37,016 nucleotides of DNA. It comes from a virus. The stretch's first letter is position 1. Every line of letters begins with the position of its first letter. A program made the position numbers and the translations under genes. The notes under the pieces are model-generated. The model was not told the DNA's origin. It did no database searches and saw only the letters and a list, made by a program, of their open reading frames with translations. Where the stretch lies: positions 1-37,016 of the IMG/VR virus record IMGVR_UViG_3300035666_000084, one strand, 5' to 3'. This document shows, one piece after another, positions 12,076-35,251 of this stretch.

Positions 12076-12795
12076 ATGCCTTTGCCAAAAATTGAACATC
12101 CTATACATGAAGTGTATTTGAAGTCCTTAGATAAGAACGTTCGTTTTCGACCATTCCTTGTAAAAGAAGAAAAACTTCTTTTAATGGCGAAAGAATCAGA
12201 GGATTTAAAAGAGATTACATCGACGATTAAACAAATTATCACGAATTGTTGTTTAGATGAGATCGACGTAGATAATCTTCCAACATTTGACGTTGAGATG
12301 TTTTTTCTCCATCTACGAATCAACTCAGTTGGTGAAACGGCTCAAATGGTCTACACATGCAATAATGTTGTAGAAGATCAGCCATGTGGTCACAATACTG
12401 AGTTTGAACTATTACTTAAAAACATTAAGTATGTAGAAACAGAAAATCACTCAAGCATTATTAAATTGACGGAAAATGTTGGCGTTAAATTTAATTATCC
12501 ATCAATCACGATTCCTCAAGCTGCACTAGATGACAAATTCGAAGATGGTGGCTATGAGGTTATTGCAGAATATCTCGACTACATCTATGATGAAAATCAG
12601 ATATACAAAAAAGAAGATATTATCAAAGAAGAACTCATGACGTTTTTCGATAATCTAACAATCGATCAGGTACAAAACATTAAACAATTCTTCTTAACCA
12701 GCCCTCGTGTTGTTCTAGAACAAGAATTAGCATGCGGTAAATGTGGGTTTGTACATAATGTTAACGTGGAGGGTATTCTAAGTTTTTTCGATTAA
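12076..12795 (+). CDS. 26: Baseplate hub / tail assembly protein gp26-like (0-frame product)
   Basis: 239 residues of the T4 gp26 baseplate family (208 in T4). Family features are FRPFLVKEEKLLLMAKES, the Cys pairs CNNVVEDQPC and a C-terminal CGKCGF, together a likely zinc site. A GGAG ribosome site lies 8 nt before ATG 12076. The stop at 12793-12795 follows a T6 run. A slippery heptamer at 12783-12789 would carry ribosomes into the -1 frame and add 65 residues (separate entry). Gp26 acts in hub assembly, and the two-product layout resembles lambda G/GT tail chaperones. Confidence 0.82.
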   Translation: MPLPKIEHPIHEVYLKSLDKNVRFRPFLVKEEKLLLMAKESEDLKEITSTIKQIITNCCLDEIDVDNLPTFDVEMFFLHLRINSVGETAQMVYTCNNVVEDQPCGHNTEFELLLKNIKYVETENHSSIIKLTENVGVKFNYPSITIPQAALDDKFEDGGYEVIAEYLDYIYDENQIYKKEDIIKEELMTFFDNLTIDQVQNIKQFFLTSPRVVLEQELACGKCGFVHNVNVEGILSFFD

Positions 12796-12986
12796 TTTTT
12801 GGTTATGACGATTTGAAAAATTATTATACAACGAATTTCTCGTTGATGCAGCATCACAAATATTCTTTAACTGAACTAGAGAATATGATACCTTGGGAAA
12901 AGCAAATTTATATAACTATGCTGCAGGAAATGATAAAAGAACAGAACGAAAAGATGAAGATGTTAGAAATGCAACGCAAAAGATAA
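12783..12986 (+). CDS. Probable -1 frameshift extension of gp26 (gp51-like assembly-chaperone domain)
   Basis: The heptamer T TTT TTC at 12783-12789, in phase with gp26 codons, is a classic -1 slippery site 3 codons before the stop. Slipping opens 65 more codons to a TAA at 12984-12986, including MQHHKYSLTELENMIPWEKQ. That is the motif found in the C-terminal part of frameshifted tail-assembly chaperones and in gp51-like proteins. As a separate gene the only ATG is 12846 (46 residues) with no ribosome site, and in-frame coding begins well upstream of it, which favours the fusion (about 303 residues in total). The stop lies just before the tape-measure start, the lambda-like order. Confidence 0.68.
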   Translation, partial: FFRLIFGYDDLKNYYTTNFSLMQHHKYSLTELENMIPWEKQIYITMLQEMIKEQNEKMKMLEMQRKR

Positions 12987-12991
12987 AATAA

Positions 12992-15766
12992 ATGGCAATA
13001 GATCCAAAAGAATTAGCAAAACTCAAAAAAGGCATTCTTAGTGATATTAATAAAAATATCAAAAATGAAGCCTTTGAGAAAGTCGCAGCTCAAGAAGCTG
13101 CTAAAGCCAGAGAAGGAAAAGGCTTTATTCGCGGTAGTATCGCAGAAGCAAAAGCCAGATCTAGAGTGGCTGATGAATGGAAAATTGCTACAGAAGGGAC
13201 CAAAGGTCGCCGATCAGCATTCTTCAAAGGTTTGCTTGGAAGAGATGTTAGCACACTGGTTAAGCAATTAGGCTTAGAGAAATATGAATCTTTAGAATCA
13301 GTTAAAGAAGCCAGAGCAAAATTTGGTCTTGATAAAAAGCAGAAGGGTGAGCGCGGCGGTGGTGGTGTAGGTAAACTAGCGAAACCACTCTCACTGATTC
13401 TTCGCAACGTGCTTGTTACGCAAAGAATGGTTCAAAATATTGAGCGAGCTCTCACAAAGCCATCTCTTAAATCGGGATATACTTTTGATCCACGCATGTC
13501 TGGTGGCGGTCGATATAGAAATCTTGATACAAACAAACTGGCTTCGGCAAAGGAAGCCACCACTGGCGGAAACGCAGCCAGAACAGCAGCACTTACAGCA
13601 GCAATCGGTGCAGATGAACAACCATTAGTTAAACTCAAAGAATATCTGGAAGATAAACTTGATGACCTAGATTCTAAGAAATTGATGAAGAGAACTGGTG
13701 ACGCCGTTTCTTCATTAAACGGTATGACACCAACGCTTGGTCTACTTTCTGTTCACGATAAATTGAACATGCTACTCGCAAGAAGTGCATTAGGAGGACT
13801 GGGAGGACTGGGTGGAGGTGGAGGTGGTCGTGGAAGGGGTCGTGGTCGTGGAAGAGGTCGTGGCAGAGGCGGTGGAAGAGGATTTGGTGGAATTGGTGCA
13901 CTGGCAGGAGCAGCTGCAGGTGGATTCCTCGCATATCAAGCAGTTGATTCATTGCGTGATCCAAATTTAGAAATTCAAGGCGGCGAGGCTTTGAAAGAGC
14001 AAGCAATGGCGGCAAAGACTCCAGAAGAAAAGAAAATAGTTGGTGATCAAATTGCTGCTGAAAAGAAAGATATTAAATTACAAGCAGCAGCAACAGGTGC
14101 TGGTGGTGCAGGCGCAGTTGCAGGTGCAGTTGCCGCAAAGAAAATTGCACAAACTGCAGTTGTAAAGAACGTTAAATCAAAAGCATGGGATTTATTTGTC
14201 GGCTTCGTCAAGAAAAGAGCACCAAAACTATTCGCCAAAATCGGAGCCAGACTTGCACTTGCGGGTGGAATGGCGACTGTGCCAGGCATTGGTTGGGTAA
14301 GTGCTGCTGTCACGATCGTTGGCAGTTTATGGCTGGCTTATGATCTTTATCAATTATGGCAAGAATTCTCTGCATTATCAGATGCTGAAAAACAATTATA
14401 TGATGAGAAGGCTCAGAAACAAAAAGGCGCTGGAGCAGCAAAACCTACTCCTGTAAAAGAAAAAATGGCACCAGTTGCTGCAGCAGATAAAAGCGCACTT
14501 CCAGGCGCAGGCACTGTGGCTGCAACAACTGCAACCGCAGCAACAATCCCAGCAGCCGTGGGTGGAGCAGCAGCACCAGTTGCACCAACACCACCAGCTG
14601 CGCGACCAAAAACATTCCTTGAAACTGCAGTCGATAAAGCCAAAGAGATCGGTGCGGGTGTGGTTTCTGGTGCAAAACAAGTTGCAAGTGCAGTTTCGAA
14701 TTTATTCTCGGGACCATCACCAAAACTAGATCAAGTTACAACGAAACAAAACGCTGGTGTCGATACTTCTGGACTTCAAGGTGGAATGCAAGATCGTCTT
14801 GCTCGAATGTCAAAGGCATTCCAAGAAGTCACTGGAAAGAAACTTATGCTTACATCTGCATATCGATCAGATGATAAGCAGATGAAGTTGTGGACTGCAA
14901 AATACAATGAACTTAAAGCAGCCAATCCAAATGCCACTGAAGCGCAACTAATTAAAATGACTCGCAAGTGGGTTGCGCTACCAGCAGCATTGGGTGGCAA
15001 GGGCAGCGCACACGGTCGTGGTACTGCTGTTGATATTAATAGTAAAGGTGCAGCAGGTATTGATACAATTAATGGTATGACCTTCAATGGTCAAAAGGTC
15101 ACAACAGATTCATTCTTAGCAATGTTTGGATTGAAGAGACCATTAAGTCATGAGCCATGGCACATTCAGCCACTAGAGGGTTCACCTACTCCAGATAATC
15201 CTGATCCAAATGCCAAGCCATTGGTTGCTGATGCAAAAGGTAACATGGTCAATTTGGAGACTGGTAAGTCTGAATCATTACCACCTCCAGCTCCAATTAC
15301 TGCTCAAACACAAAAAGAATCATTACCTTCTGTGTCTGACTCTGTTGCTGCAGCTCCTTCTACTACTGATCCACTAGCAACAAAATCAGATGGAACAGCA
15401 ATTGATGCTCAACCAATGGTCGCTGCAGCTCCTGCAGCACCACCTTCCATGGTTGCAGCAACACCTCCTGCAGCAGCAGCACCTTCTTATAATAGTGCGC
15501 AATTAACTCCTGTGGCAAGTGCAACAGGAAATCAAGTTGCCCAAGGTTCTGCTCAACTCGCATCATCACAAATGACTGCACAGGCGGCACCAGCACCAGC
15601 ACCAGTAGTGGTGAATAATAACAATGCTGGTTCTCAAAAACCAATTGAATCGCCAAAACAAGGATTATTAAAAGCATCTTCGCGTTCAAGCGAAAACTCT
15701 TTTGTCAGAGCAATATCAAAAGACTTCTCTCATCCAACATCATTCACTTCGTCAATTATTGTGTGA
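12992..15766 (+). CDS. Tail tape-measure / hub length-determinator protein with M15 peptidase domain
   Basis: 924 residues, the largest gene here, in the place of T4 gp29/gp28. Residues 1-150 are Lys/Ala/Glu-rich helices. Residues ~266-300 contain a run of GGLGG followed by RGRGRG repeats (DNA 13793-13890). A hydrophobic region at ~413-457 (LALAGGMATVPGIGWVSAAV, then a Trp/Leu-rich segment) fits membrane insertion. Residues ~590-725 form a D-Ala-D-Ala carboxypeptidase-type M15 domain with LTSAYRSDDKQ, the zinc motif GSAHGRGTAVDIN and EPWHIQP. The last 170 residues are Ala/Pro/Gln-rich. Family knowledge indicates that the peptidase would cut peptidoglycan cross-links during injection, replacing the lysozyme missing from gp5. 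No clear ribosome site; probably coupled to the upstream frame. Confidence 0.8.
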   Translation: MAIDPKELAKLKKGILSDINKNIKNEAFEKVAAQEAAKAREGKGFIRGSIAEAKARSRVADEWKIATEGTKGRRSAFFKGLLGRDVSTLVKQLGLEKYESLESVKEARAKFGLDKKQKGERGGGGVGKLAKPLSLILRNVLVTQRMVQNIERALTKPSLKSGYTFDPRMSGGGRYRNLDTNKLASAKEATTGGNAARTAALTAAIGADEQPLVKLKEYLEDKLDDLDSKKLMKRTGDAVSSLNGMTPTLGLLSVHDKLNMLLARSALGGLGGLGGGGGGRGRGRGRGRGRGRGGGRGFGGIGALAGAAAGGFLAYQAVDSLRDPNLEIQGGEALKEQAMAAKTPEEKKIVGDQIAAEKKDIKLQAAATGAGGAGAVAGAVAAKKIAQTAVVKNVKSKAWDLFVGFVKKRAPKLFAKIGARLALAGGMATVPGIGWVSAAVTIVGSLWLAYDLYQLWQEFSALSDAEKQLYDEKAQKQKGAGAAKPTPVKEKMAPVAAADKSALPGAGTVAATTATAATIPAAVGGAAAPVAPTPPAARPKTFLETAVDKAKEIGAGVVSGAKQVASAVSNLFSGPSPKLDQVTTKQNAGVDTSGLQGGMQDRLARMSKAFQEVTGKKLMLTSAYRSDDKQMKLWTAKYNELKAANPNATEAQLIKMTRKWVALPAALGGKGSAHGRGTAVDINSKGAAGIDTINGMTFNGQKVTTDSFLAMFGLKRPLSHEPWHIQPLEGSPTPDNPDPNAKPLVADAKGNMVNLETGKSESLPPPAPITAQTQKESLPSVSDSVAAAPSTTDPLATKSDGTAIDAQPMVAAAPAAPPSMVAATPPAAAAPSYNSAQLTPVASATGNQVAQGSAQLASSQMTAQAAPAPAPVVVNNNNAGSQKPIESPKQGLLKASSRSSENSFVRAISKDFSHPTSFTSSIIV

Positions 15767-19286: not shown

Positions 19287-19310
19287 GTTTAGAGTCTCCA
19301 TTATTGCAGT

Positions 19311-19344
19311 GGAAAGAAAAGGGTGGTGGTTCGCACCACCACCC
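19311..19344 (-). terminator. Rho-independent terminator of the tmRNA
   Basis: Minus strand: GGGTGGTGGT, GCGA tetraloop, ACCACCACCC, a perfect 10-bp stem (19321-19344), followed by TTTTCTTTCC. It separates the tmRNA from the hydrolase gene. Confidence 0.9.
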
Positions 19345-19610
19345 CAGACCTTTCTGTTACCGAGCGGTCAACTCTTTGTGCGAAATGGGTTTTTACGCCG
19401 CCATCGCCATAGGTGTAAATGAATCATCGTTTGCATTTACGTTTTTTGCGCTGATTAAGTCAGTCGCCTCACTGGTTGCTGTCAGGTTATTACTTGCCCT
19501 GTCGAAGCCAAATTCATCCCCATAAGATAGCCACCACGTACATTGCTGCAGAGGTGATGGGCATTTGGTGGAGATGTCGGGGGTCGAACCCGAGTCCAGA
19601 ACACCTTTAA
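19345..19610 (-). ncRNA. ssrA: Circularly permuted (two-piece) tmRNA
   Basis: The acceptor piece comes first on the minus strand: T-arm TCGGG-TTCGACC-CCCGA and an encoded 3' CATCTCCACCA ending at 19566. After a spacer of about 44 nt the coding piece begins at 19521 with GGGGATGAATTTGGCTTCGA, the classic tmRNA 5' end. GGGGATG pairs with CATCTCC over 7 bp, with G3-U70, the alanine identity pair. The resume codon is probably GCA at 19432-19434, preceded by CGCAAAAAACGTAAAT, which resembles the E. coli CGCAAAAAATAGTC context. The tag then reads ANDDSFTPMAMAA and stops at 19393-19395. An earlier GCA (19449) would give AKNVN-ANDDSFTPMAMAA. The order acceptor-then-coding is the permuted form. Ends of the mature pieces are approximate. 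It would rescue stalled ribosomes with SmpB, which I do not see here. Confidence 0.93.
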
Positions 19611-19630
19611 TTGTCAGTTTACAACCATTA
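19611..19630. repeat. 20-bp direct repeat, copy 1
   Basis: TTGTCAGTTTACAACCATTA, repeated at 19803-19822 with one difference. The two copies flank the 52-residue gene at 19628-19786. This copy includes the stop codon of that gene and lies just upstream of the tmRNA acceptor piece. Confidence 0.85.
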
Positions 19631-19786
19631 TTTTTTATTTAATAATTGATCTTGTCGACCAGACAAACCCTGTTCAATACCTTGTTGAATTTCTTTGTCA
19701 ACATCGATGCCAAGTTCAGTTAAACCTTTCCTGACTTCTTCGTCAACATGCACTTCAACAGTATTTCCATTCACTTCAATCTTCAT
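19628..19786 (-). CDS. Small hypothetical protein (52 aa) flanked by direct repeats
   Basis: Reads MKIEVNGNTVEVHVDEEVRK and on to DQLLNKK, with an AGAGGA ribosome site 6 nt before the ATG. The first 16 residues look like a beta hairpin and the rest a charged helix. No family recognised. It lies between the AhpD-like fragment and the tmRNA and is bounded by a 20-bp direct repeat. Confidence 0.7.
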   Translation of the reverse strand: MKIEVNGNTVEVHVDEEVRKGLTELGIDVDKEIQQGIEQGLSGRQDQLLNKK

Positions 19787-26647: not shown

Positions 26648-26723
26648 TGGTAGCGGGGGTTGGATTCGAACCAACGGAAACTGGATTATGAGTCCAGTGA
26701 CTTGACCTCTAGTCTACCCCGCA
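26648..26723 (-). tRNA. tRNA with CAT anticodon (Met or lysidine-type Ile)
   Basis: Anticodon stem CTGGA / TCCAG, loop CTCATAA. T-arm GTTGG-TTCGAAT-CCAAC, encoded CCA. Acceptor pairs 2-71 to 7-66 are good but position 1:72 is a T:T mismatch. The 5' 10 nt overlap the stop of the small gene at 26714. Confidence 0.9.
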
Positions 26724-26836
26724 GTTTTCTGTTTCGGTTGCTTCTTCTGTCCGAAGATGCGATCCCAATTATCCTCAAATTTTTTTCTTGGAATGCTCAA
26801 TGGACGAGGCTTACTTCCTTTTCCACCAGTGCTCAT
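26714..26836 (-). CDS. Small conserved phage protein (40 aa)
   Basis: Reads MSTGGKGSKPRPLSIPRKKF, then EDNWDRIFGQKK. The GGKGSxPRP start and FxxxWDxIFG pattern is common in a small protein of marine phages. The stop TAG is inside the tRNA (positions 8-10). The start directly follows the glycosyltransferase stop (TAATATG). Function unknown. Confidence 0.75.
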   Translation of the reverse strand: MSTGGKGSKPRPLSIPRKKFEDNWDRIFGQKKQPKQKTAG

Positions 26837-26837
26837 A

Positions 26838-27533
26838 TTAAAATCTCACTTTGTTTACTCCAAATGCTGCGTCTTGATCAGCAATTTGAATCTCAGTATA
26901 AATTCTTGATGTTTCGCTGTTTGCCGCAAGAGAGTCTACCGTAACATGCCATGGAGTATCACATTCACAGTTAGTGATGATGTAATTTTCTTTTGCTGTT
27001 GCAATTCTTTTCCAAAGCATCACTTCACCATGAAAAATCTTCACTCCAGGGATTGGTGTATAGTCGCTTCTGTTAACAAAGAACAAACATCCAATACCAA
27101 CTGGCGGTGGGCGCTCTTCAGCAACAGGATGATTCATACTCACAAAATTGATTGTATTGTCAGTTAGAAATCTTCTGTATGAATGTTCTTCGCGATCGTC
27201 AACTAGAAGAGCAACCATTCCAATTTCTGGTTTGAGAAACTCATCTGCTCTATTGAATACATCGATGTTCACATCTAAGTCATCTGAAAGAAAACAAAAC
27301 TTATCGAATCTTGCCAACTCTGCTCCCAGATTCCATGCTGGTGCAACATAGATGTTCTTTTCGCAATTATGCATTCGAATCTTTTCATGATTCAAAACTT
27401 CAGATTCAGGAGTTGATGCAACATCATTATTAATGATGATAACTTCTCCAACTGATTCTTGCTCTAGAACCAATTCTAAGAAATCTAGAAATGGCTCGTA
27501 ACGCCACATTGTTGGTACGATAACTGATAGCAT
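26838..27533 (-). CDS. GT2-like glycosyltransferase
   Basis: 231 residues from ATG 27533, which overlaps the HNH stop as TAATG and has GGAG; the alternative is 27545. N-terminal LSVIVPTMWRYEPFLDFLEL and EVIIINND, then the nucleotide/metal motif CFLSDDLDVNID (DxD), and VAPAWNLGAELA before it, as in GT-A family 2 enzymes. The target could be a virion sugar, a modified base or a host glycan. Confidence 0.8.
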   Translation of the reverse strand: MLSVIVPTMWRYEPFLDFLELVLEQESVGEVIIINNDVASTPESEVLNHEKIRMHNCEKNIYVAPAWNLGAELARFDKFCFLSDDLDVNIDVFNRADEFLKPEIGMVALLVDDREEHSYRRFLTDNTINFVSMNHPVAEERPPPVGIGCLFFVNRSDYTPIPGVKIFHGEVMLWKRIATAKENYIITNCECDTPWHVTVDSLAANSETSRIYTEIQIADQDAAFGVNKVRF

Positions 27534-28099
27534 TAATTTCTCCAAACTCGCGATGTTTTAGGAATACTTGCCTTTAGATATTCCATTTGATCAGCGAGAA
27601 CCTTACGATTCTTCAATAGAATCCGCTCATGCACAGTTGGTGCGTACGGAACATATAACAGATGCATCTTTGCTTCTTCTGGGGTCTTGTTACCCTTTTT
27701 ATGATTGCATGGGCGACATGCAGTAACGCAGTTTGCCCATTGATTGCCACCACCACGAGACTTTGGATGCACATGATCAATGGTTAATTGACTGGTGCTA
27801 AACTCATTTCCGCAATAAGCGCAGATGTGCCAATCACGAGCATATAATGTCATGCGATCAGCGAATTTAGTTTGTTTATTATAGAACTTGTCGCCAAGTA
27901 ATGGACCACTTACACCAATGATACAGGAGATGTCAATGCGTGACTGCTCTCCATGCTCATTGTGTCCACCAAGCATGGTTTTCATCTTCGCGCCTAATTC
28001 CCAGAGAACCTTATCCTTGGCATAGTAACATGATGCCATTTCGAAGTTCACCCAGTCTTTGGGCATCCCACCTTTGTCTACAACTAATACTAGACTCAT
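27533..28099 (-). CDS. HNH endonuclease
   Basis: 188 residues. Zinc pairs CAYCGNEF and CRPCNHKKGN surround LTIDHVHPKSRGGGNQWANC, a complete HNH core (D-H ... N ... ). The N-terminal half (residues 1-85) is a conserved extension seen in similar marine phage HNH proteins. It may be a homing or packaging-related nuclease. A GATAAATA box (late-like) is just upstream at the end of the preceding gene. Confidence 0.9.
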   Translation of the reverse strand: MSLVLVVDKGGMPKDWVNFEMASCYYAKDKVLWELGAKMKTMLGGHNEHGEQSRIDISCIIGVSGPLLGDKFYNKQTKFADRMTLYARDWHICAYCGNEFSTSQLTIDHVHPKSRGGGNQWANCVTACRPCNHKKGNKTPEEAKMHLLYVPYAPTVHERILLKNRKVLADQMEYLKASIPKTSRVWRN

Positions 28100-28105
28100 A
28101 ATGTA

Positions 28106-28948
28106 TTATTTATCTTCAACCACTTGAAGTTTAACAAAATTTTCACCACGAATTTCTTCGTTGATATAAGTTGCTTCAGTCAGCAACCACAATGCGGTTC
28201 CAATCTCATCTGCATAAGATAACAATGCAGAAGTGTCTTTCGGAAAGCAACTGCCGCCGAATCCAAAATGTCCGTCTGGTCCTGGAACACGCCAGTGTGT
28301 ATGACCCAATCGTTTATCAAGAACAGCAAGTTCAGCAATGCGACCATAGTCAACGTCGACCTTGTCGCAAAGAATCTTAAACTCATTTGCGAAAATAACT
28401 TTAGTTGCCAAGAAACTGTTTGCAAGATATTTAAACAACTCGGCTTCTTTGGTTGTGCGCTGAATTACATGAGCAACGTTATCAACTGCTGAATTAAATT
28501 CATAATACAACTGAGTCATCACCGTTGCAAGACCTGGATCGTCTGCACCAATAACAATCAATGGCTGAGTGCGAAAATCATTGTGAGCATTGGCTTCTGT
28601 GAGAAACTCAGGATTGAATCCGATTGTCATATTGAAATCAGATGCAAGTCGCGAAGTTGTTCCTGGAGTCACTGTTGACTTGATTACGACATACTTACGA
28701 CGATCGATCTGAGCAATATCGTCAATCACACTGCTTACGATAGAAACATCGCACTCTCTACTAACTCTCATCGGAGTTGGGACGCAAACAAAAATAATAT
28801 CTGATGTTTCTACAAATTCTCTAAAAGTCGCAACGGTGCGCTTTGTCTCATCAGTATCCCAAACGAGTGTATTGAAAACGTTTTTAAAGTTTTCATACAT
28901 TGCGCCGCCGACAAATCCTTTGCCGATAATTCCAACTGTGTAACTCAT
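28106..28948 (-). CDS. Nucleotide-sugar (UDP-glucose/GDP-mannose) dehydrogenase, short form
   Basis: 280 residues from ATG 28948, which has GGAGG; the open frame upstream is tRNA. Rossmann motif VGIIGKGFVGGAM, then IIFVCVPTPM, KSTVTPGTTSRL, GFNPEFLTEANAHNDF and catalytic Cys in HFGFGGSCFPKD (near residue 234). It ends about 45 residues after the catalytic Cys, so the C-terminal nucleotide-sugar domain of full Ugd (about 390-450) is missing; this short form is common in phages. With the nearby glycosyltransferase it suggests sugar-acid chemistry. Confidence 0.86.
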   Translation of the reverse strand: MSYTVGIIGKGFVGGAMYENFKNVFNTLVWDTDETKRTVATFREFVETSDIIFVCVPTPMRVSRECDVSIVSSVIDDIAQIDRRKYVVIKSTVTPGTTSRLASDFNMTIGFNPEFLTEANAHNDFRTQPLIVIGADDPGLATVMTQLYYEFNSAVDNVAHVIQRTTKEAELFKYLANSFLATKVIFANEFKILCDKVDVDYGRIAELAVLDKRLGHTHWRVPGPDGHFGFGGSCFPKDTSALLSYADEIGTALWLLTEATYINEEIRGENFVKLQVVEDK

Positions 28949-28961
28949 ATAACCTCCAAAT

Positions 28962-29045
28962 TGGTGCCCAGGAGAGGACTCGAACCTCCATGCCTTTCGA
29001 CGGTGGCTTCTAAGACCACTGCGTATACCATTCCGCCACCTGGGC
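28962..29045 (-). tRNA. tRNA-Leu (TAG)
   Basis: Acceptor GCCCAGG / CCTGGGC, anticodon arm GTGGT-CTTAGAA-GCCAC, long variable arm (class II), T-arm with GGTTCGAGTCC, encoded ACCA. Confidence 0.95.
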
Positions 29046-29058
29046 ATAAAACAAATTT

Positions 29059-29148
29059 TGGCGGATCAGGTAGGATTCGAACCTACGGTTCCCGTGAAGG
29101 AACGACAGTTTTCAAGACTGGTGCAATCAACCGCTCTGCCACTGATCC
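29059..29148 (-). tRNA. tRNA-Ser (TGA)
   Basis: Acceptor GGATCAG / CTGATCC, anticodon arm CAGT-CTTGAAA-ACTG, long variable arm, T-arm GTAGG-TTCGAAT-CCTAC, encoded GCCA. Confidence 0.95.
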
Positions 29149-29150
29149 AA

Positions 29151-29510
29151 TTATTTCCTCAAACTGTGTCGAGTTGGTTTCCCATTTTCATCGACACAAA
29201 CAAAAACCATTTCCTCAATATTTACAATTATCTTTTGTGATGTTAAGTCGCGCACCTGCACCTCTAAAGTGATGCTGGTGTTTCCGACTTTCTTTAAAGC
29301 AACTCCAATTTCAACAACATCACCCTTACGAGCAGGAGCAACAAAGTTGATCTCTGAGATGCTCTTTGTTACAACACGCTTATGACGAGTTTCAATGGCT
29401 GCGTAAATTGCAGCCTCTTCGTCAATCCACTCCAAGCACCGCCCACCGAACAACGTATCATTCGCGTTCAGATCTTCAGGCTTGACCAACTTTCTTGTTA
29501 GAAATCTCAT
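29151..29510 (-). CDS. Acyl-CoA thioesterase (YciA-like hotdog fold)
   Basis: 119 residues. LNANDTLFGGRCLEWIDEEA is the YciA/BACH-type active-site region (N-D near the start of the central helix), followed by EINFVAPARKGDVVEIGVAL and TSITLEVQVRDL. It would hydrolyse acyl-CoA thioesters. It overlaps the upstream gene by 35 nt, and a perfect consensus promoter lies just before the ATG. A thioesterase is an unusual phage gene. Confidence 0.87.
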   Translation of the reverse strand: MRFLTRKLVKPEDLNANDTLFGGRCLEWIDEEAAIYAAIETRHKRVVTKSISEINFVAPARKGDVVEIGVALKKVGNTSITLEVQVRDLTSQKIIVNIEEMVFVCVDENGKPTRHSLRK

Positions 29511-29826
29511 TCATCACCTTATTATACTCTTTAGTAATAAAAATGTCAAGTGCCTCGACGATCTTGTCAATTCTATGGAATTGATTGTTCTTGGCGGCTT
29601 CTCGCGTGTGATTATTTAGATATGCTAAATCAAACAAAAGATTCTCAACAGTGATTTCATTATCTCGCACACGCCGCAAGATTTCGCGATATGTGTGAGC
29701 GTTCTGAATCACTTTTCTATCATGAGGGATGCCAGAGGATGACGCGCCTTTATTCTCAAGAGCATCACAAAGCATATCTACATGCGGCTGGAGATCTTCG
29801 AATTTTAATTGTTTTGCTTGACTCAT
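29476..29826 (-). CDS. Hypothetical protein (116 aa)
   Basis: Mostly helical (VDMLCDALENKG, REILRRVRDNEITVENLLFD). No family recognised. The ATG is 5 nt after the CCA end of the tRNA-Gly gene with no ribosome site, so a tRNA-processed mRNA would be nearly leaderless. Confidence 0.65.
   Translation of the reverse strand: MSQAKQLKFEDLQPHVDMLCDALENKGASSSGIPHDRKVIQNAHTYREILRRVRDNEITVENLLFDLAYLNNHTREAAKNNQFHRIDKIVEALDIFITKEYNKVMNEISNKKVGQA
29521..29549 (-). promoter_or_regulatory. Perfect consensus sigma70 promoter before the thioesterase
   Basis: Minus strand: -35 TTGACA (29544-29549), 17-bp spacer, -10 TATAAT (29521-29526). It lies inside the upstream coding region. The start would be only a few bases before the thioesterase ATG. 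Confidence 0.8.
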
Positions 29827-29831
29827 AAAAT

Positions 29832-29905
29832 TGGAGCGGGCAGCGAGAATCGAACTCGCACGATAACCTTGGCAAGGTCACAGGCAACCATTACATCATG
29901 CCCGC
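29832..29905 (-). tRNA. tRNA-Gly (GCC)
   Basis: Acceptor GCGGGCA / TGCCCGC, anticodon arm ACCT-TTGCCAA-GGT region, T-arm GCGAG-TTCGATT-CTCGC, encoded TCCA. Confidence 0.94.
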
Positions 29906-29910
29906 ATTAA

Positions 29911-30525
29911 TTATTCATATTCCTGGTATATATTTCCTGCGATAGAGATTCTTTCTTCATCGCTGGTGAAAAATGGATACACACAATGAGTCATCGATGA
30001 TGGGAACATAGTTACTGTTCCTTCCATACCCTTATCAACATAAACAGGATTGCTTACAATTCTGCCATCGAATGTAGTGTATGTAAACTCAAAGCAAGAG
30101 TTCTTCGGAGGATATTGAGGATTGTTGTATCCGTTATGAGCAATTTCATCTTGCAAATTGTATGGAATTGTGATCCAGATTACAAAGACTGCAAGTGCAT
30201 TTGGGTGAGTATGATTCGGATTAAACTCACCAGCCTTCATATAGTTGGTCCAAATTGGATCGAGACGATATGGAACATCTGGAGTTTTATAGAGATTCTT
30301 CCATGCATCGTACATATCATGCAGATATTCTCTCAATCCAGGAACCTCTGGCGTCACATATTCTTCGCGAATACTTCCAACCAAATCTTTCGTCATCGCT
30401 TTGTTCTGACGAGCACTTGGATCATTGACTGCCTTCTTCACTTTCTTTAAAAGATGATTCGGAAGTCTGCCTGCAAGAATACCAGGATTAAAAAGATATG
30501 GAACGTTAAACGTATTTTTACTCAT
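29911..30525 (-). CDS. 2OG-Fe(II) oxygenase-like protein
   Basis: 204 residues. NPNHTHPNALAVFVIWI supplies the first metal His pair, and SSMTHCVYPFFTSDEERISI with the second His and the 2OG-binding Arg completes a pattern seen in phage putative 2OG-Fe(II) oxygenases. The substrate is not known. It starts 13 nt before the radical SAM gene stop with an AGAAATAATT leader. Confidence 0.78.
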   Translation of the reverse strand: MSKNTFNVPYLFNPGILAGRLPNHLLKKVKKAVNDPSARQNKAMTKDLVGSIREEYVTPEVPGLREYLHDMYDAWKNLYKTPDVPYRLDPIWTNYMKAGEFNPNHTHPNALAVFVIWITIPYNLQDEIAHNGYNNPQYPPKNSCFEFTYTTFDGRIVSNPVYVDKGMEGTVTMFPSSMTHCVYPFFTSDEERISIAGNIYQEYE

Positions 30526-30537
30526 AATTATTTCTCA

Positions 30538-31542
30538 CTAAAACATCAATTTCGCAGAATAACAATTCGTACAAATTTCTTTGTATGCCTTCTCTACTGT
30601 ATTAATATGTAGGTCGCTGAGCCAGACATCTCTAATAGACTGTGTTGTTAAATCACCAAACTTATAATCAAAGTTGTAATCATTGCAACATAGAAATACA
30701 GAACCAGCAGAGTTTACGTTCAACCATTCTGTAGATCGATCGCCCCAGTTATTGCAACCAATGACTTGCTTGTTCCCTTGCTGCTGTTTACGCAGATATG
30801 GCTTATTGGTAACTAGGTGATCAATTGTTCCTGCGCGATCATATATCGCATCTTTGTGAATATTGATTCCTGGAAATAAACTCCGAGCCAGTTCAAATTG
30901 TTTCTGATGTTCGCCAGTTCGAGGATTGAGATCGTATTCGAGAGAATTAAACTCTGGACCCTTTGTAAGATATCCACCATCAACTGGACCCTGATCAAGT
31001 CCATTAATGCCAATCTGAAATTCAGAGCCAAGATGTTTTAATTCTTGAGAAGCATATTGAACATTATTAATCAATCTGTCAAACTGCTCTGGTGAGAAAC
31101 CAGTGCGTTTCGACCATAAGTTTCTCTCAAATGCTGGAATGTTTAGACCAACGTGAATCACAACATCGCTATAACTCTTGATCAGATCAACGCGTGACTT
31201 TGTGAGCGACACACCATTGCTTAGAACATAGCAATTGAACTTGTAAATTCTCAAGAGTTCAAACAGATGATCCAGTTGCTTGTAAAGCAGAATCTCATTA
31301 TAGTGAGAGAGTGTGATTGTCTTGAAGTTTGGATCGATGACGCTATCAGGTTTTTTCATTTCTTCGCGAATGTCAGAAAGAATCTTTTCGATCAAACTTG
31401 GATGCATTGTTCCACTGCCTTCTTCAGGCTGCGGGATATACTTGACTGGACAAAACCAACATTTGGCGTTGCAGAAACCAAACGGATCTAATTGTAGATG
31501 TTTGATTTTCGTATTTCTGATTTTATTCGCAACAAATGACAT
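30538..31542 (-). CDS. Radical SAM protein with SPASM-like C-terminal domain
   Basis: 334 residues. The cluster motif is LDPFGFCNAKCWFCPVKYI (Cys24, Cys28, Cys31). The C-terminal region has further Cys groups (VIGCNNWGDRSTEW, VFLCCNDYNFDYKFGD, ICTNCYSAK) like SPASM auxiliary cluster domains. These enzymes modify peptides, sugars or cofactors by radical chemistry. The substrate is unknown. It starts after tRNA-Arg with an AGGTGA ribosome site. Confidence 0.87.
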   Translation of the reverse strand: MSFVANKIRNTKIKHLQLDPFGFCNAKCWFCPVKYIPQPEEGSGTMHPSLIEKILSDIREEMKKPDSVIDPNFKTITLSHYNEILLYKQLDHLFELLRIYKFNCYVLSNGVSLTKSRVDLIKSYSDVVIHVGLNIPAFERNLWSKRTGFSPEQFDRLINNVQYASQELKHLGSEFQIGINGLDQGPVDGGYLTKGPEFNSLEYDLNPRTGEHQKQFELARSLFPGINIHKDAIYDRAGTIDHLVTNKPYLRKQQQGNKQVIGCNNWGDRSTEWLNVNSAGSVFLCCNDYNFDYKFGDLTTQSIRDVWLSDLHINTVEKAYKEICTNCYSAKLMF

Positions 31543-31556
31543 ACATCACCTATAAT

Positions 31557-31632
31557 TGGCACGCTCGGCAGGAATCGAACCTGCGACCCACAGCTTAGAA
31601 GGCTGTTGTTCTATCCGCTGAACTACGAGCGC
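31557..31632 (-). tRNA. tRNA-Arg (TCT)
   Basis: Acceptor GCGCTCG / CGAGCGT (G1-U72 wobble), anticodon arm ACAGC-CTTCTAA-GCTGT, T-arm GCAGG-TTCGATT-CCTGC, encoded GCCA. First 10 nt overlap the upstream gene. Confidence 0.94.
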
Positions 31633-32153
31633 AAATCCTCAGAACCAAAAGAGAGACCTACGCGTGGAGTCATGGGCTTTGTATCATGCCACATTCCACG
31701 CGGAACATAAATCAACTCTCCTGGTTCTAAAACCTTTTCAAAGTTTCGTTTTCGACCTTCAACTTTCCACAGAGTGTATCCAGTCATTTGCCAACACCAA
31801 ACATCCATCACATCATGATGGCGTCCATATGTGGCTGACTCTGCACTCAAACTTATATATGCGAGCGCAGTGAAGTTCTGTGGGCGACGACGAACATTAT
31901 GTGTTCGAGAAATCTGTTTTAAAAATTCACCAACAACTGGAATTTGTTCGACACGATGAAGAACAAATCCAAGTTTATCTTGAAATTTGAAGATATCCTT
32001 GTAATCTGTTTTTAAATGTATCTGATATTCACGATCAAACTCTAATAGAATTTCATCCCAACTCGGAGTTGGGATTTTTACGTGCCCGAAATGATAATAG
32101 TCTTCATTGTTGCGAGCAGCAATATAGTTTGTATCGTATAGAAAATGAAACAT
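31623..32153 (-). CDS. JmjC/cupin-like oxygenase
   Basis: 176 residues. ATYGRHHDVMDVWCWQMTGY holds the His-x-Asp-type metal pair and LWKVEG follows, then LEPGELIYVPRGMWHDTKPM with the distal His and RVGLSFG, as in JmjC-type Fe(II) hydroxylases. The start is 9 nt downstream of the tRNA-Gly 3' end with no ribosome site. The stop TAG is inside tRNA-Arg. Confidence 0.78.
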   Translation of the reverse strand: MFHFLYDTNYIAARNNEDYYHFGHVKIPTPSWDEILLEFDREYQIHLKTDYKDIFKFQDKLGFVLHRVEQIPVVGEFLKQISRTHNVRRRPQNFTALAYISLSAESATYGRHHDVMDVWCWQMTGYTLWKVEGRKRNFEKVLEPGELIYVPRGMWHDTKPMTPRVGLSFGSEDLRS

Positions 32154-32161
32154 AATTAAAT

Positions 32162-32235
32162 TGGAGCGGTGTGCGAGAATCGAACTCGCTTAACCAGCTT
32201 GGAAGGCTGGGACACAACCAATATGCCAACACCGC
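32162..32235 (-). tRNA. tRNA-Gly (TCC)
   Basis: Acceptor GCGGTGT / ACACCGC, anticodon arm CCAGC-CTTCCAA-GCTGG, T-arm GCGAG-TTCGATT-CTCGC, encoded TCCA. Confidence 0.95.
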
Positions 32236-32236
32236 A

Positions 32237-32962
32237 TTATTCGAATAAAGTTGAGTGTGAATCCATCATTGCCAGATATGCGTTCTCTTCACCAACGTTG
32301 TAATAGTACAAAGCCAAACTCTTTCGAGTCACACCATCAGGAGTATTTAACGGATGAGGATGACCGTGCCATGGCTTTCCGTTTGTATTGAACAGCACAC
32401 AACGATTGAAGATTGGAGCAATCTTCTGTACACATTCAGTCTTATCTGCGTTCCACAATTCTAAATGACCACCCCATTCATCTTGCCAATCTTTGTTTAG
32501 ATACAACAGAAGATTTAATTGACGATGCAGACGAGTATGATTTTCAATATTGAAATCAATATGAACGCCAAGTTTACCACCACGTTCGATATTATGAAGA
32601 CCACCACCATACAGACGAGTATCAGCAACGAGTCCAGGAACTCGAGTCAAATGTTCGAGCCAATTTAGAACATACCCTGAATTCAACTCATGTAAGACAT
32701 GACGAATGAATTGCGGAATAAAGAACTCGCTCTTTGACATGAGTTTTAACTCATGTGTGCCGTCAAACTTATGCCAATAGTCTTTGTTGTAACTATCGAA
32801 ATGAATTAGAACTTCATCGAGGACTTCAGGTGGAAGAAAATCATCGATCACAATATGCGGAAATGGATTTGCTTGCGCATATTGAACTTTTGCAGAATTA
32901 AGCCATTCTGGATTATAGTATTTTTGAACAAACCATTCTCGAAAGTCTGTCAGATCTTTCAT
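32237..32962 (-). CDS. 2OG-Fe(II) oxygenase, prolyl-hydroxylase type
   Basis: 241 residues. FPHIVIDDFLPPEVLDEVL is the usual N-terminus, GVHIDFNIE the HxD metal pair, LLYLNKDWQDEWGGHLELW the core strand, and PWHGHPHPLNTPDGVTRKSL the distal His and Arg. A complete P4H-like domain. Target may be protein, nucleotide or sugar. GGAG ribosome site after tRNA-Leu. Confidence 0.88.
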   Translation of the reverse strand: MKDLTDFREWFVQKYYNPEWLNSAKVQYAQANPFPHIVIDDFLPPEVLDEVLIHFDSYNKDYWHKFDGTHELKLMSKSEFFIPQFIRHVLHELNSGYVLNWLEHLTRVPGLVADTRLYGGGLHNIERGGKLGVHIDFNIENHTRLHRQLNLLLYLNKDWQDEWGGHLELWNADKTECVQKIAPIFNRCVLFNTNGKPWHGHPHPLNTPDGVTRKSLALYYYNVGEENAYLAMMDSHSTLFE

Positions 32963-32975
32963 ATTGACTCCAATT

Positions 32976-33060
32976 TGGTGCGACTGGTCGGACTTGAACC
33001 GACATGGCTAACGCCGACAGATTTTAAGTCTGTTGTGTATACCGATTCCACCACAGTCGC
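32976..33060 (-). tRNA. tRNA-Leu (TAA)
   Basis: Acceptor GCGACTG / CAGTCGC, anticodon arm CAGA-CTTAAAA-TCTG, long variable arm, T-arm GTCGG-TTCAAGT-CCGAC, encoded ACCA. Confidence 0.95.
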
Positions 33061-33065
33061 GAAAA

Positions 33066-33626
33066 TTACTTCAACGTACTCATGATGTCATTGTATACTT
33101 GATCCTGTTTGTCGTGCACAAGATCCCAAATATTTTCACACCAAAGATCGAAATATTCTTGACTGTCTTTTTCTGACGAATTGAGTTCAGGAACCATTTC
33201 GTGCATCATCTCTTCGATCTCACCCTCTTCGCCCCATTCACATCCATCAATCATACCATCTTTATTGTAAATATAAACACCAAAGAAATTTGGCATTTCG
33301 TCTTCATACATCACAGAAGCGATGAAGTCAGGATCAACAGAAGCAATCTGCTCAAAGAGCCACTCTAATCCTGATTGTGGAAAACTCCATGCAGAGATTG
33401 TATTGAAATAATCTTCACCGCGATCTTCGAAGTGACACCACTTCGGACCAACGTTTTCTAGATTCCATTCATATAATTTGGTGATTTCTGGATCAATTCC
33501 AAAGATGTCGCTGAACCACTCATAGCCATCTCCAGTTCGAACTCGAGAATAGAGTTCTTGCAACTTTGCTTTGCCAGCATCGTTGAGTTTGTCAAAACGA
33601 ACCGAAGTATTCACATGATTTGCCAT
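33066..33626 (-). CDS. Conserved phage protein, possible Api92-like ferredoxin-fold
   Basis: 186 residues. MANHVNTSVRFDKLNDAGK and YEWNLENVGPKWCHFEDRGE are reminiscent of the Api92/DUF1281 ferredoxin-fold group, but I cannot be certain. The C-terminal half is strongly acidic with aromatic residues. GGAG ribosome site. Function unknown. Confidence 0.68.
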   Translation of the reverse strand: MANHVNTSVRFDKLNDAGKAKLQELYSRVRTGDGYEWFSDIFGIDPEITKLYEWNLENVGPKWCHFEDRGEDYFNTISAWSFPQSGLEWLFEQIASVDPDFIASVMYEDEMPNFFGVYIYNKDGMIDGCEWGEEGEIEEMMHEMVPELNSSEKDSQEYFDLWCENIWDLVHDKQDQVYNDIMSTLK

Positions 33627-33647
33627 AACAATCTCCAGTTATAAAAT

Positions 33648-33724
33648 TGGTCGGACAGAGAGGATTCGAACCTCCGACCCTCTGCTCCCAAAGCAGATGC
33701 ACTACCAGGCTGTGCTACTGTCCG
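33648..33724 (-). tRNA. tRNA-Pro (TGG)
   Basis: Acceptor CGGACAG / CTGTCCG, anticodon arm TCTGC-TTTGGGA-GCAGA, T-arm GGAGG-TTCGAAT-CCTCT, encoded ACCA. Confidence 0.95.
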
Positions 33725-33735
33725 ATTGTTCATCT

Positions 33736-33764
33736 ATTCTACTATATCTAGTCGTAAAAGTAAA
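33736..33764 (-). promoter_or_regulatory. Sigma70-like promoter before tRNA-Pro
   Basis: Minus strand: -35 TTTACT (33759-33764), 17-bp spacer, -10 TAGAAT (33736-33741). It begins one base after the CCA of the upstream tRNA and drives the tRNA-Pro end of the array. Confidence 0.62.
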
Positions 33765-33765
33765 G

Positions 33766-33841
33766 TGGTGGGACCACTTGGATTTGAACCAAGACTCAAC
33801 GAATTATGAGTTCGCTGCATTAACCGTTATGCTATAGTCCC
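33766..33841 (-). tRNA. tRNA-Met (CAT)
   Basis: Acceptor GGGACTA / TGGTCCC, anticodon arm CGAA-CTCATAA-TTCG, T-arm CTTGG-TTCAAAT-CCAAG, encoded ACCA. Full 1:72 pair, so elongator Met or Ile-CAT. Confidence 0.93.
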
Positions 33842-33842
33842 A

Positions 33843-34070
33843 TCATTCTATAATTTCAATTTCACTTTCTGTAACTACAGCAACTCTTGCACCACAAGGC
33901 AAGAGTGTTTTCTCATTTCCAGAATATACGACTTCACTTGGTCCATGAATCTTCACACGGTGACAATAAGTATTCTTCCTGCCTTCCTTGATGGTAAGCA
34001 CAGGATTATTTTCGTTGTTCTTTTTATTTGCACGAATGACGTGCTGATTGACATGAATATACTTTTTCAT
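33843..34070 (-). CDS. Conserved small phage protein (75 aa)
   Basis: MKKYIHVNQHVIRANKKNNE and NTYCHRVKIHGPSEVVYS, then CGARVAVVTESEIEI, form a small beta-rich protein common in environmental phages and bacteria. Three possible starts in a row (GTG 34076, ATG 34073, ATG 34070) follow GGAG; 34070 has the best spacing. Function unknown. Confidence 0.72.
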   Translation of the reverse strand: MKKYIHVNQHVIRANKKNNENNPVLTIKEGRKNTYCHRVKIHGPSEVVYSGNEKTLLPCGARVAVVTESEIEIIE

Positions 34071-34084
34071 CATCACTCCAAAAC

Positions 34085-34159
34085 TGGTGCGGGATGAGAG
34101 GGTCGAACTCCCGACATTTGCCGTGTAAAGGCACTACTCTACCACTGAGTTAATCCCGC
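34085..34159 (-). tRNA. tRNA-Val (TAC)
   Basis: Acceptor GCGGGAT / ATCCCGC, anticodon arm TGCC-TTTACAC-GGCA, encoded ACCA. Confidence 0.94.
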
Positions 34160-34165
34160 ATAAAC

Positions 34166-34240
34166 TGGAGTTGCGGACTGGACTCGCACCAGCATAAAAG
34201 AGTTTTGCAGACTCTTGCATAACTTTTCTGCCACCGCAAC
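34166..34240 (-). tRNA. tRNA-Cys (GCA)
   Basis: Acceptor GTTGCGG / CCGCAAC, anticodon arm AGAGT-CTGCAAA-ACTCT, T-loop reads GTGCGAG where TTC-type is usual, encoded TCCA. Confidence 0.92.
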
Positions 34241-34244
34241 AAAA

Positions 34245-34330
34245 TGGTGGGTGAAGTAGGATTCGAACCTACTCAGCCAATGGCAGCGGATTTACAGTCC
34301 GACGCGACTCTCCAACTTCGCCGTTCACCC
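34245..34330 (-). tRNA. tRNA-Tyr (GTA)
   Basis: Acceptor GGGTGAA / TTCACCC, anticodon arm CGGA-CTGTAAA-TCCG, long variable arm, T-arm GTAGG-TTCGAAT-CCTAC, encoded ACCA. Confidence 0.94.
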
Positions 34331-34334
34331 AATA

Positions 34335-34408
34335 TGGCTGAGGAGCATGGATTCGAACCACGATAAGCAGGATCAAAACCTGCTGTCCTGCCGTTAGACG
34401 ACTCCTCA
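34335..34408 (-). tRNA. tRNA-Gln (TTG)
   Basis: Acceptor TGAGGAG / CTCCTCA (weak 1:72 pair usual for Gln), anticodon arm GCAGG-TTTTGAT-CCTGC, encoded GCCA. Confidence 0.94.
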
Positions 34409-34675
34409 AAAAGTGCTGGATGGGATAGTTGGGTTTGCTCACTCCAGGCATCCGATGAAGGCGACACATTACTGCTCGCCACATCCAGCGAAAAAGTTGC
34501 TTCCTCTCTGCGGTGGTCACTATAGCGCATAAAAAGTCGCGCCTCCATCCACTTCACGACCCAGAGAGGATTTTCGCATTGCCAGCGCCAGTTCGGTTAG
34601 ACTGGAACCACCCTACGGACATCACGCCGTTTCTCATCATCTGGGTAGACTAGCCGTTGACTAGACGGCACGTTT
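34409..34675 (-). other. 267-bp GC-richer spacer with small hairpins in the tRNA array
   Basis: No tRNA and no convincing gene. Two short overlapping frames exist on the minus strand but both run through the tRNA genes. Two 5-bp hairpins with tRNA-arm-like loops occur: GCCGT-CTAGTCA-ACGGC and CCAGT-CTAACCGA-ACTGG (minus strand). It may be an ncRNA or remnants of tRNA genes. Confidence 0.4.
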
Positions 34676-34750
34676 TGGTGGAGGATGAGAGAATCGAACT
34701 CTCAACTCTGCGATGCAAACGCAGCGTGTTCCCATTAGCACTAATCCCCC
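34676..34750 (-). tRNA. tRNA-Ala (TGC)
   Basis: Acceptor GGGGGAT / ATCCTCC with the G3-U70 alanine identity pair, anticodon arm CTGCG-TTTGCAT-CGCAG, encoded ACCA. Confidence 0.95.
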
Positions 34751-34757
34751 AAAACAG

Positions 34758-34802
34758 GCGTGGGCTACCATTTAAGGTTCGTTCTTATCTATGCCCCCAC
34801 GC
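34758..34802. other. 7-bp stem with 31-nt loop between tRNA-Ala and tRNA-Asn
   Basis: GCGTGGG (34758-34764) pairs with CCCACGC (34796-34802). The loop contains ACCATTTAAGGT. The 162-bp gap (34751-34912) otherwise holds no gene or tRNA I can identify. Confidence 0.45.
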
Positions 34803-34912
34803 AACATAGAATGCATTCCGTTCTGCCTCATATATCAATCAGTGCTCCCGAAACGGAAAAGCCTCAACACTGATAGGATGAACCCGACAGATGCATCTGC
34901 AGGTCACCAAGA

Positions 34913-34987
34913 TGGCTGGCACGGGTGGGATCGAACCACCGACAGGCTGATTAACAGTCAGCTGATCTACCGCTGATCTACGCGCCA
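34913..34987 (-). tRNA. tRNA-Asn (GTT)
   Basis: Acceptor TGGCGCG / CGTGCCA, anticodon arm GCTGA-CTGTTAA-TCAGC, T-arm with GGTTCGATCC, encoded GCCA. Confidence 0.94.
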
Positions 34988-35003
34988 AAACATTTTCACA
35001 AAT

Positions 35004-35078
35004 TGGTGAGACCACTGGGACTCGAACCCAGAACTTACTGGTTAAAAGCCAGTTACTCTACCATTGAGTTATGGTCTC
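35004..35078 (-). tRNA. tRNA-Lys (TTT)
   Basis: Acceptor GAGACCA / TGGTCTC, anticodon arm CTGG-CTTTTAA-CCAG, T-arm CTGGG-TTCGAGT-CCCAG, encoded ACCA. Confidence 0.95.
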
Positions 35079-35099
35079 AAAAATCACATAACAAAAATT

Positions 35100-35174
35100 T
35101 GGTGAACCCAAGGGAATTCGAATCCCTATTCCAGCCGTGAAAGGGCTGTGTCCTGACCGTTAGACGATGGGTCC
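35100..35174 (-). tRNA. tRNA-Glu (TTC)
   Basis: Acceptor GGACCCA / TGGGTTC, anticodon arm CAGCC-CTTTCAC-GGCTG, T-arm AGGGA-TTCGAAT-TCCCT, encoded ACCA. Confidence 0.95.
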
Positions 35175-35175
35175 A

Positions 35176-35251
35176 TGGTGCCGCCGATAGGACTCGAACC
35201 TACAACCCCCTGATTACAAATCAGGTGCACTACCAGTTGTGCTACAGCGGC
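35176..35251 (-). tRNA. tRNA-Thr (TGT)
   Basis: Acceptor GCCGCTG / CGGCGGC, anticodon arm CTGA-TTTGTAA-TCAG, T-arm GTAGG-TTCGAGT-CCTAT, encoded ACCA. First tRNA of the array in the direction of transcription. Confidence 0.95.

Follow-up and report, generated by a model that had tools for sequence, protein, structure and literature searches.

Evidence for a probable programmed -1 ribosomal frameshift joining gp26 to a gp51 domain in T4-like phages

Background

Tail chaperones of T4-like phages are reportedly the subject of a 2022 article by Vladimirov, Gautam and Davidson (Virology 566:9-15). Two papers cite this work: in the citing statements, some T4-like phages are said to have a separate fused gene in place of frameshifting (PMC10885494), and poly-T frameshift signals are described as known in T4-like TAC-N genes (PMC12846349). 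Because of these two citing statements, we regard the core idea, namely that both arrangements occur among T4-like phages, as probably already published by Vladimirov et al. (2022). It was also noted in 2010, and left unexplained, that the gp51 proteins of cyanophages and marine vibriophages are without their first ~200 residues (PMC3037559). If the arrangement proposed below is correct, these residues would only seem to be missing, since gp26 would supply them through the frameshift.

In phage lambda, the frameshift site is G_GGA_AAG. The lambda gpG/gpGT pair is described as a short form accompanied by a rarer, -1 frameshifted long form (PMC5009743; Xu, Hendrix and Duda 2004, via PMC8785237). 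A TAC frameshift with a GTTTTT motif is reported for the Vandenendeviridae and Andersonviridae (phage Adele; PMC12846349). In Escherichia coli, the dnaX site A_AAA_AAG yields a shortened DNA polymerase subunit with about 50 % efficiency, and dnaX serves as the example of Shine-Dalgarno (SD) stimulators of -1 frameshifting, which act at a spacing of 9-14 nt (PMC5009743).

Layout of the locus

The window (a 37,016-nt stretch of viral DNA, positions 1 to 37,016 of IMG/VR record IMGVR_UViG_3300035666_000084) encodes gp26 (239 aa) in the zero frame at positions 12076-12795 of the plus strand. The product matches PF12322 T4_baseplate (E=1.2e-56) and phrog_150 baseplate hub (E=9.3e-63). The 3' end of the gene reads ...GTG GAG GGT ATT CTA AGT TTT TTC GAT TAA, and the heptamer T_TTT_TTC (12783-12789, plus strand) lies one codon upstream of the TAA stop (12793-12795, plus strand) in the X_XXY_YYZ phase, a register that suits a simultaneous -1 slip of two tRNAs. 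A TAA at 12762-12764 bounds the -1 frame upstream and another at 12984-12986 closes it; between them the frame is open, and 65 codons (12789-12983) would be added after a slip, giving a predicted gp26-gp51 fusion of 303 aa. Both the in-phase heptamer before the gp26 stop and the open -1 frame of 65 codons had been claimed in the original prediction and were found as described. With its stop codon, the extension (12789-12986, plus strand) represents the gp51 C-terminal domain (match to phrog_634, 'baseplate hub assembly catalyst', E=1.5e-24). A stretch of it had been called a chaperone motif; it is properly the conserved motif of gp51.

The next gene (12992-15766, plus strand, 924 aa) begins 6 nt past the -1 stop. 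A VanY peptidase domain, of the D-Ala-D-Ala carboxypeptidase type, was detected in its product (PF02557, E=2.1e-8), and comparison of the open reading frame with tape-measure families gave no significant match. Judged by size and position only, it is a probable tape-measure gene. The second frame had been predicted to lie directly before the tape-measure gene; a long adjoining open reading frame is there, and the tape-measure part of that claim is a probable assignment. In phage DLP6, the corresponding gene gave a match to an endolysin family and a weak one to a tape-measure family.

When gp26 was compared with the PDB by sequence and by fold, nothing significant was found, and an AlphaFold2 model of the protein (pLDDT 86) gave structural matches to viral gp26 proteins only. 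With no fold match in the PDB, gp26 is identified as a chaperone by the T4 family and by gene order.

The locus resembles lambda gpG/gpGT in the proposed pairing of a short form with a frameshifted long form, followed by a long open reading frame in the tape-measure position. It differs from lambda in that no sequence relationship was found, in that it belongs to the PF12322 family of a contractile-tail T4-like phage, and in its slippery site, T_TTT_TTC, which follows an SD-like element. The Vandenendeviridae and Andersonviridae, as far as they are presented in PMC12846349, likewise have a poly-T -1 site conserved at the TAC-N end and, ahead of the tape measure, a -1 frame without interruptions; they are different phage families from that of the window, and an SD-like stimulator is not mentioned in that presentation. 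The dnaX cassette is similar in its upstream SD at 9-14 nt and its slippery heptamer, and a downstream hairpin is present in some relatives of the window; dnaX differs in having an A_AAA_AAG site and a shortened polymerase subunit as its product.

Conservation of the heptamer and of the -1 frame

Relatives were gathered from IMG/VR in sets of 75, 80, 2 and 80 (some found twice) and combined with annotated isolate loci. Loci whose gp26 stop could be read, 253 in all, made up the conservation set and formed 129 lineages after clustering at 80 % DNA identity. An in-phase xxT TTT TTN at most four codons from the gp26 stop was present in 250 of the 253 homologous loci (126 of the 129 lineages), and in 220 loci TTT TTC stood exactly one codon before the stop. 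In each of the 250 heptamer loci, the -1 frame leads into the gp51 domain. Isolates with the heptamer include P-SSM2, S-RSM4, S-RIM14, S-BM3, S-CRM01, ACG-2014b and j, S-CAM8, Melnitz, phiM19, phiM9, RL38J1, RHph_Y68, DLP6, pf16, R10Z, V07, K566, EniLVp02 and CC2. Alignment of homologues had been proposed as a check, and it agreed with the original prediction on both the heptamer and -1 frame coding; loss of the slippery site with retention of the second frame, named beforehand as contrary evidence, was limited to three loci, those of the distant relatives Vibrio D508, Salmonella phage maane and Vibrio phage Kuja.

Instead of the heptamer, Vibrio phage D508 has a TAATG overlap at the gp26 stop, and the Ackermannviridae phages maane and Kuja have ATT TTC / CTT TTT close to the stop. 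A scan for relatives of the D508 gp26 found none, and the same scan for DLP6 gp26 found two.

Across the 126 lineages, the codon ahead of the Phe pair was AGT, AAT, GAT, TCT, GGT, GCT, ACT or TTT; the residue thus varies (Ser, Asn, Asp, Gly, Ala, Thr, Phe) while the final T of the codon is invariant. The first Phe codon of the pair was TTT in every lineage with the heptamer, compared with a background of 69 % TTT. The naive probability is near 1e-20 for each of these two invariant features, a value that is overstated because the lineages are related, although the direction is clear. The T run was exactly T6C in 100 of the 126 lineages.

Coding in the -1 frame was analyzed with 24 distinct sequences from the clade of the window. 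For the -1 frame, the ratio of nonsynonymous to synonymous counts came to 0.32; the remaining frames gave 4.96 and 13.56. The variable columns at the three -1 codon positions numbered 31, 18 and 56 of 60. These substitution patterns indicate that strong purifying selection acts on the -1 frame. In six lineages, the -1 frame is open solely from the heptamer onward, which leaves the heptamer as the only possible place for the shift.

Shine-Dalgarno-like element and downstream RNA structure

An internal SD-like element, GGAGGG (12768-12773, plus strand), which was absent from the original prediction, ends ~9 nt before the heptamer and is proposed as a 5' frameshift stimulator. Its spacing fits the range reported for -1 stimulators. 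Predicted pairing of the element with the 16S rRNA 3' end reached <= -5 kcal/mol in up to 76 % of the 126 lineages, compared with a background of 2.8 % at the same threshold elsewhere in gp26. At the Glu position of the element, GAG exceeded GAA by 60 to 28 against a background of 23 % GAG (naive P 1e-19, with the lineages being related), and the Leu and Val codons preceding this position were enriched in a final G. At the level of codon usage, the SD-like element is thus under synonymous-codon constraint, which is possibly new to the literature.

Downstream of the heptamer, RNA stability peaked at 6-45 nt, with a mean z of -0.94 compared with about -0.1 in flanking windows. Clear, strong hairpins, likewise absent from the original prediction, were observed in P-SSM2, S-RSM4 and others, and in the clade of the window no significant downstream hairpin was found (z about -0.1). 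The stability signal is real on average across the set; the paired register differs between lineages. A cross-sequence synonymous shuffle of folding energy gave z -12, which may be inflated by mixed G+C genomes; because this shuffle mixes genomes of different G+C, we relied on dinucleotide shuffles. Comparison with synonymous-codon shuffles over 119 lineages gave no support to a specific 8-bp hairpin, whose arms in S-RIM14 lie ~15 nt past the heptamer (4.82 pairs vs 4.73 +/- 0.05).

Proposed mechanism and alternative explanations

We consider it very probable, from the comparative sequence data, that the T4-like tail-assembly chaperone gene undergoes a programmed -1 ribosomal frameshift. The majority of ribosomes would terminate at 12793, yielding gp26. 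The others, a minority, would pause with GGAGGG (12768-12773) paired to the 16S rRNA 3' end and with tRNA-Phe in the P and A sites on TTT TTC; the tRNAs would slip one base back and re-pair on TTT TTT, and the shifted ribosomes would then read the gp51 domain to 12984, producing the fusion. By analogy with lambda gpG/gpGT, the short and long forms may recruit and coat the tape measure and initiate tail-tube formation. In this scheme, we infer the slippage, its efficiency, the role of the SD-like element and the assembly function. Some observations count against frameshifting. U_UUU_UUN shifts less readily in E. coli than A_AAA_AAG, the tested forms being UUA and UUU, not UUC (PMC5009743); the clade of the window is missing the hairpin, and three relatives have no heptamer.

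Instead of a fusion, termination-reinitiation (translational coupling) past the gp26 stop could yield gp51 as a small protein of its own. An ATG occurs in the -1 frame near the gp26 stop in 52 of the 126 lineages, the heptamer-less Vibrio D508 carries TAATG, and in the GenBank records that we examined, gp51 is annotated as a separate gene or omitted, and the fusion is annotated in none. However, the first -1-frame start codon is conserved neither in identity nor in position, which ranges across the 126 lineages from -148 to +95 as counted from the gp26 stop, and a start near the N-terminus of the gp51 domain with an SD-like sequence at initiation distance was found in only four of these lineages. 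In the window, none of the first start candidates (TTG 12813, TTG 12843 and ATG 12846) is preceded by a Shine-Dalgarno sequence, and the sole start upstream of the conserved NYY..NF motif is a TTG of this kind. The second frame had been predicted to lack a ribosome site of its own, and homologues with a conserved separate start and ribosome site had been named as contrary evidence; the start survey bears the prediction out on both points. Moreover, the SD-like element is at least about 19 nt from any such start, too far for initiation, and reinitiation leaves the invariant T's at synonymous positions of the heptamer unexplained. We therefore judge reinitiation to be improbable.

Transcriptional slippage on the T run, rather than a ribosomal shift, would give the same -1 product, and the junction does carry a run of six, seven or more T's. 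The bacterial cases described involve stretches of ~9 A or T residues (PMC5009743), whereas T6C predominates here, and slippage of the polymerase needs neither a fixed codon register nor a constrained SD-like element at ribosomal spacing; this explanation is less probable still. The remaining one, that a chance T run or a sequencing error lies at the junction and the second frame is merely the next gene, has in its favour that TTTTTTC is common in the AT-rich window (16 copies seen, 20 expected) and unremarkable by itself. The weight of the heptamer as sequence evidence is thus in its phase and conservation, not in the mere presence of TTTTTTC. In-phase conservation over the 126 lineages, from unrelated assemblies and isolates, contradicts a chance origin, to which we give hardly any credence.

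Comparison with T4 and gene copy number

In T4 gp51, residues 1-201 match PF12322 (E=3.9e-52) and residues 147-246 match phrog_634; T4 gp26 has the PF12322 match alone. T4 gp51 is therefore the same gp26-gp51 fusion, encoded in one frame. The two domains are the same as in the window, where the gp51 C-terminal domain likewise matches phrog_634. T4 differs in that its long form has a fused gene to itself, located on the opposite strand, in place of one gene with a proposed frameshift. The end of T4 gp26 reads TTC TTT GAG TTA CTA TAA, in which Phe-Phe is retained and the slip site is absent.

When PF12322 genes were counted in 28 genomes, five had two copies (T4, Aeromonas 25, IME13, Ursula and SonariX), none of them with the heptamer. 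The other 23 had one copy, and the heptamer was present in 20 of these 23, the exceptions being Vibrio D508 and the Ackermannviridae phages maane and Kuja. The window, a genome fragment, also has a single PF12322 copy, as do all 20 heptamer-bearing genomes searched, unlike T4 with its two. The frameshift arrangement is kept within the Straboviridae too, in KVP40-like phages and CC2. The link to T4 that had been suggested at the outset was thus supported, both by the in-frame fusion in T4 gp51 and by the lack of the slippery site in two-copy genomes. The copy-number contrast is possibly new to the literature. These comparisons suggest that frameshifting is the usual arrangement in T4-like phages and that T4 and its close kin have a second, fused gene copy.

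We lean towards the view that gp26-gp51 frameshifting is ancestral in the T4 superfamily, covering the Kyanoviridae, Pootjesviridae, Emdodecavirus, Schizotequatrovirus, Emmerichvirinae and the lineage of the window. Duplication and in-frame fusion would then have followed in T4/Tulanevirus and a stop/start overlap in D508, and an SD-like stimulator would drive the frameshift, with a hairpin taking its place or joining it in some lineages. As a natural experiment, the set would let three routes to the same protein pair be compared and the required ratio be tested.

As gp51 was separate or omitted in all records examined, many T4-like genomes would need the fused product added. A frameshift would also explain how a related gp51 gets overlooked, for example in CC2. 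In Aeromonas phage CC2, an unannotated gp51-like -1 frame was observed at 1480-1670, after AGT TTT TTC GCA TAA.

Elsewhere in the window, a phage-encoded permuted tmRNA was detected at 19302-19675 on the minus strand (RF04321, 138.6 bits; also beta_tmRNA), with the tag ANDDSFTPMAMAA. Eighteen tRNA genes are located on the same strand at 26648-35251.
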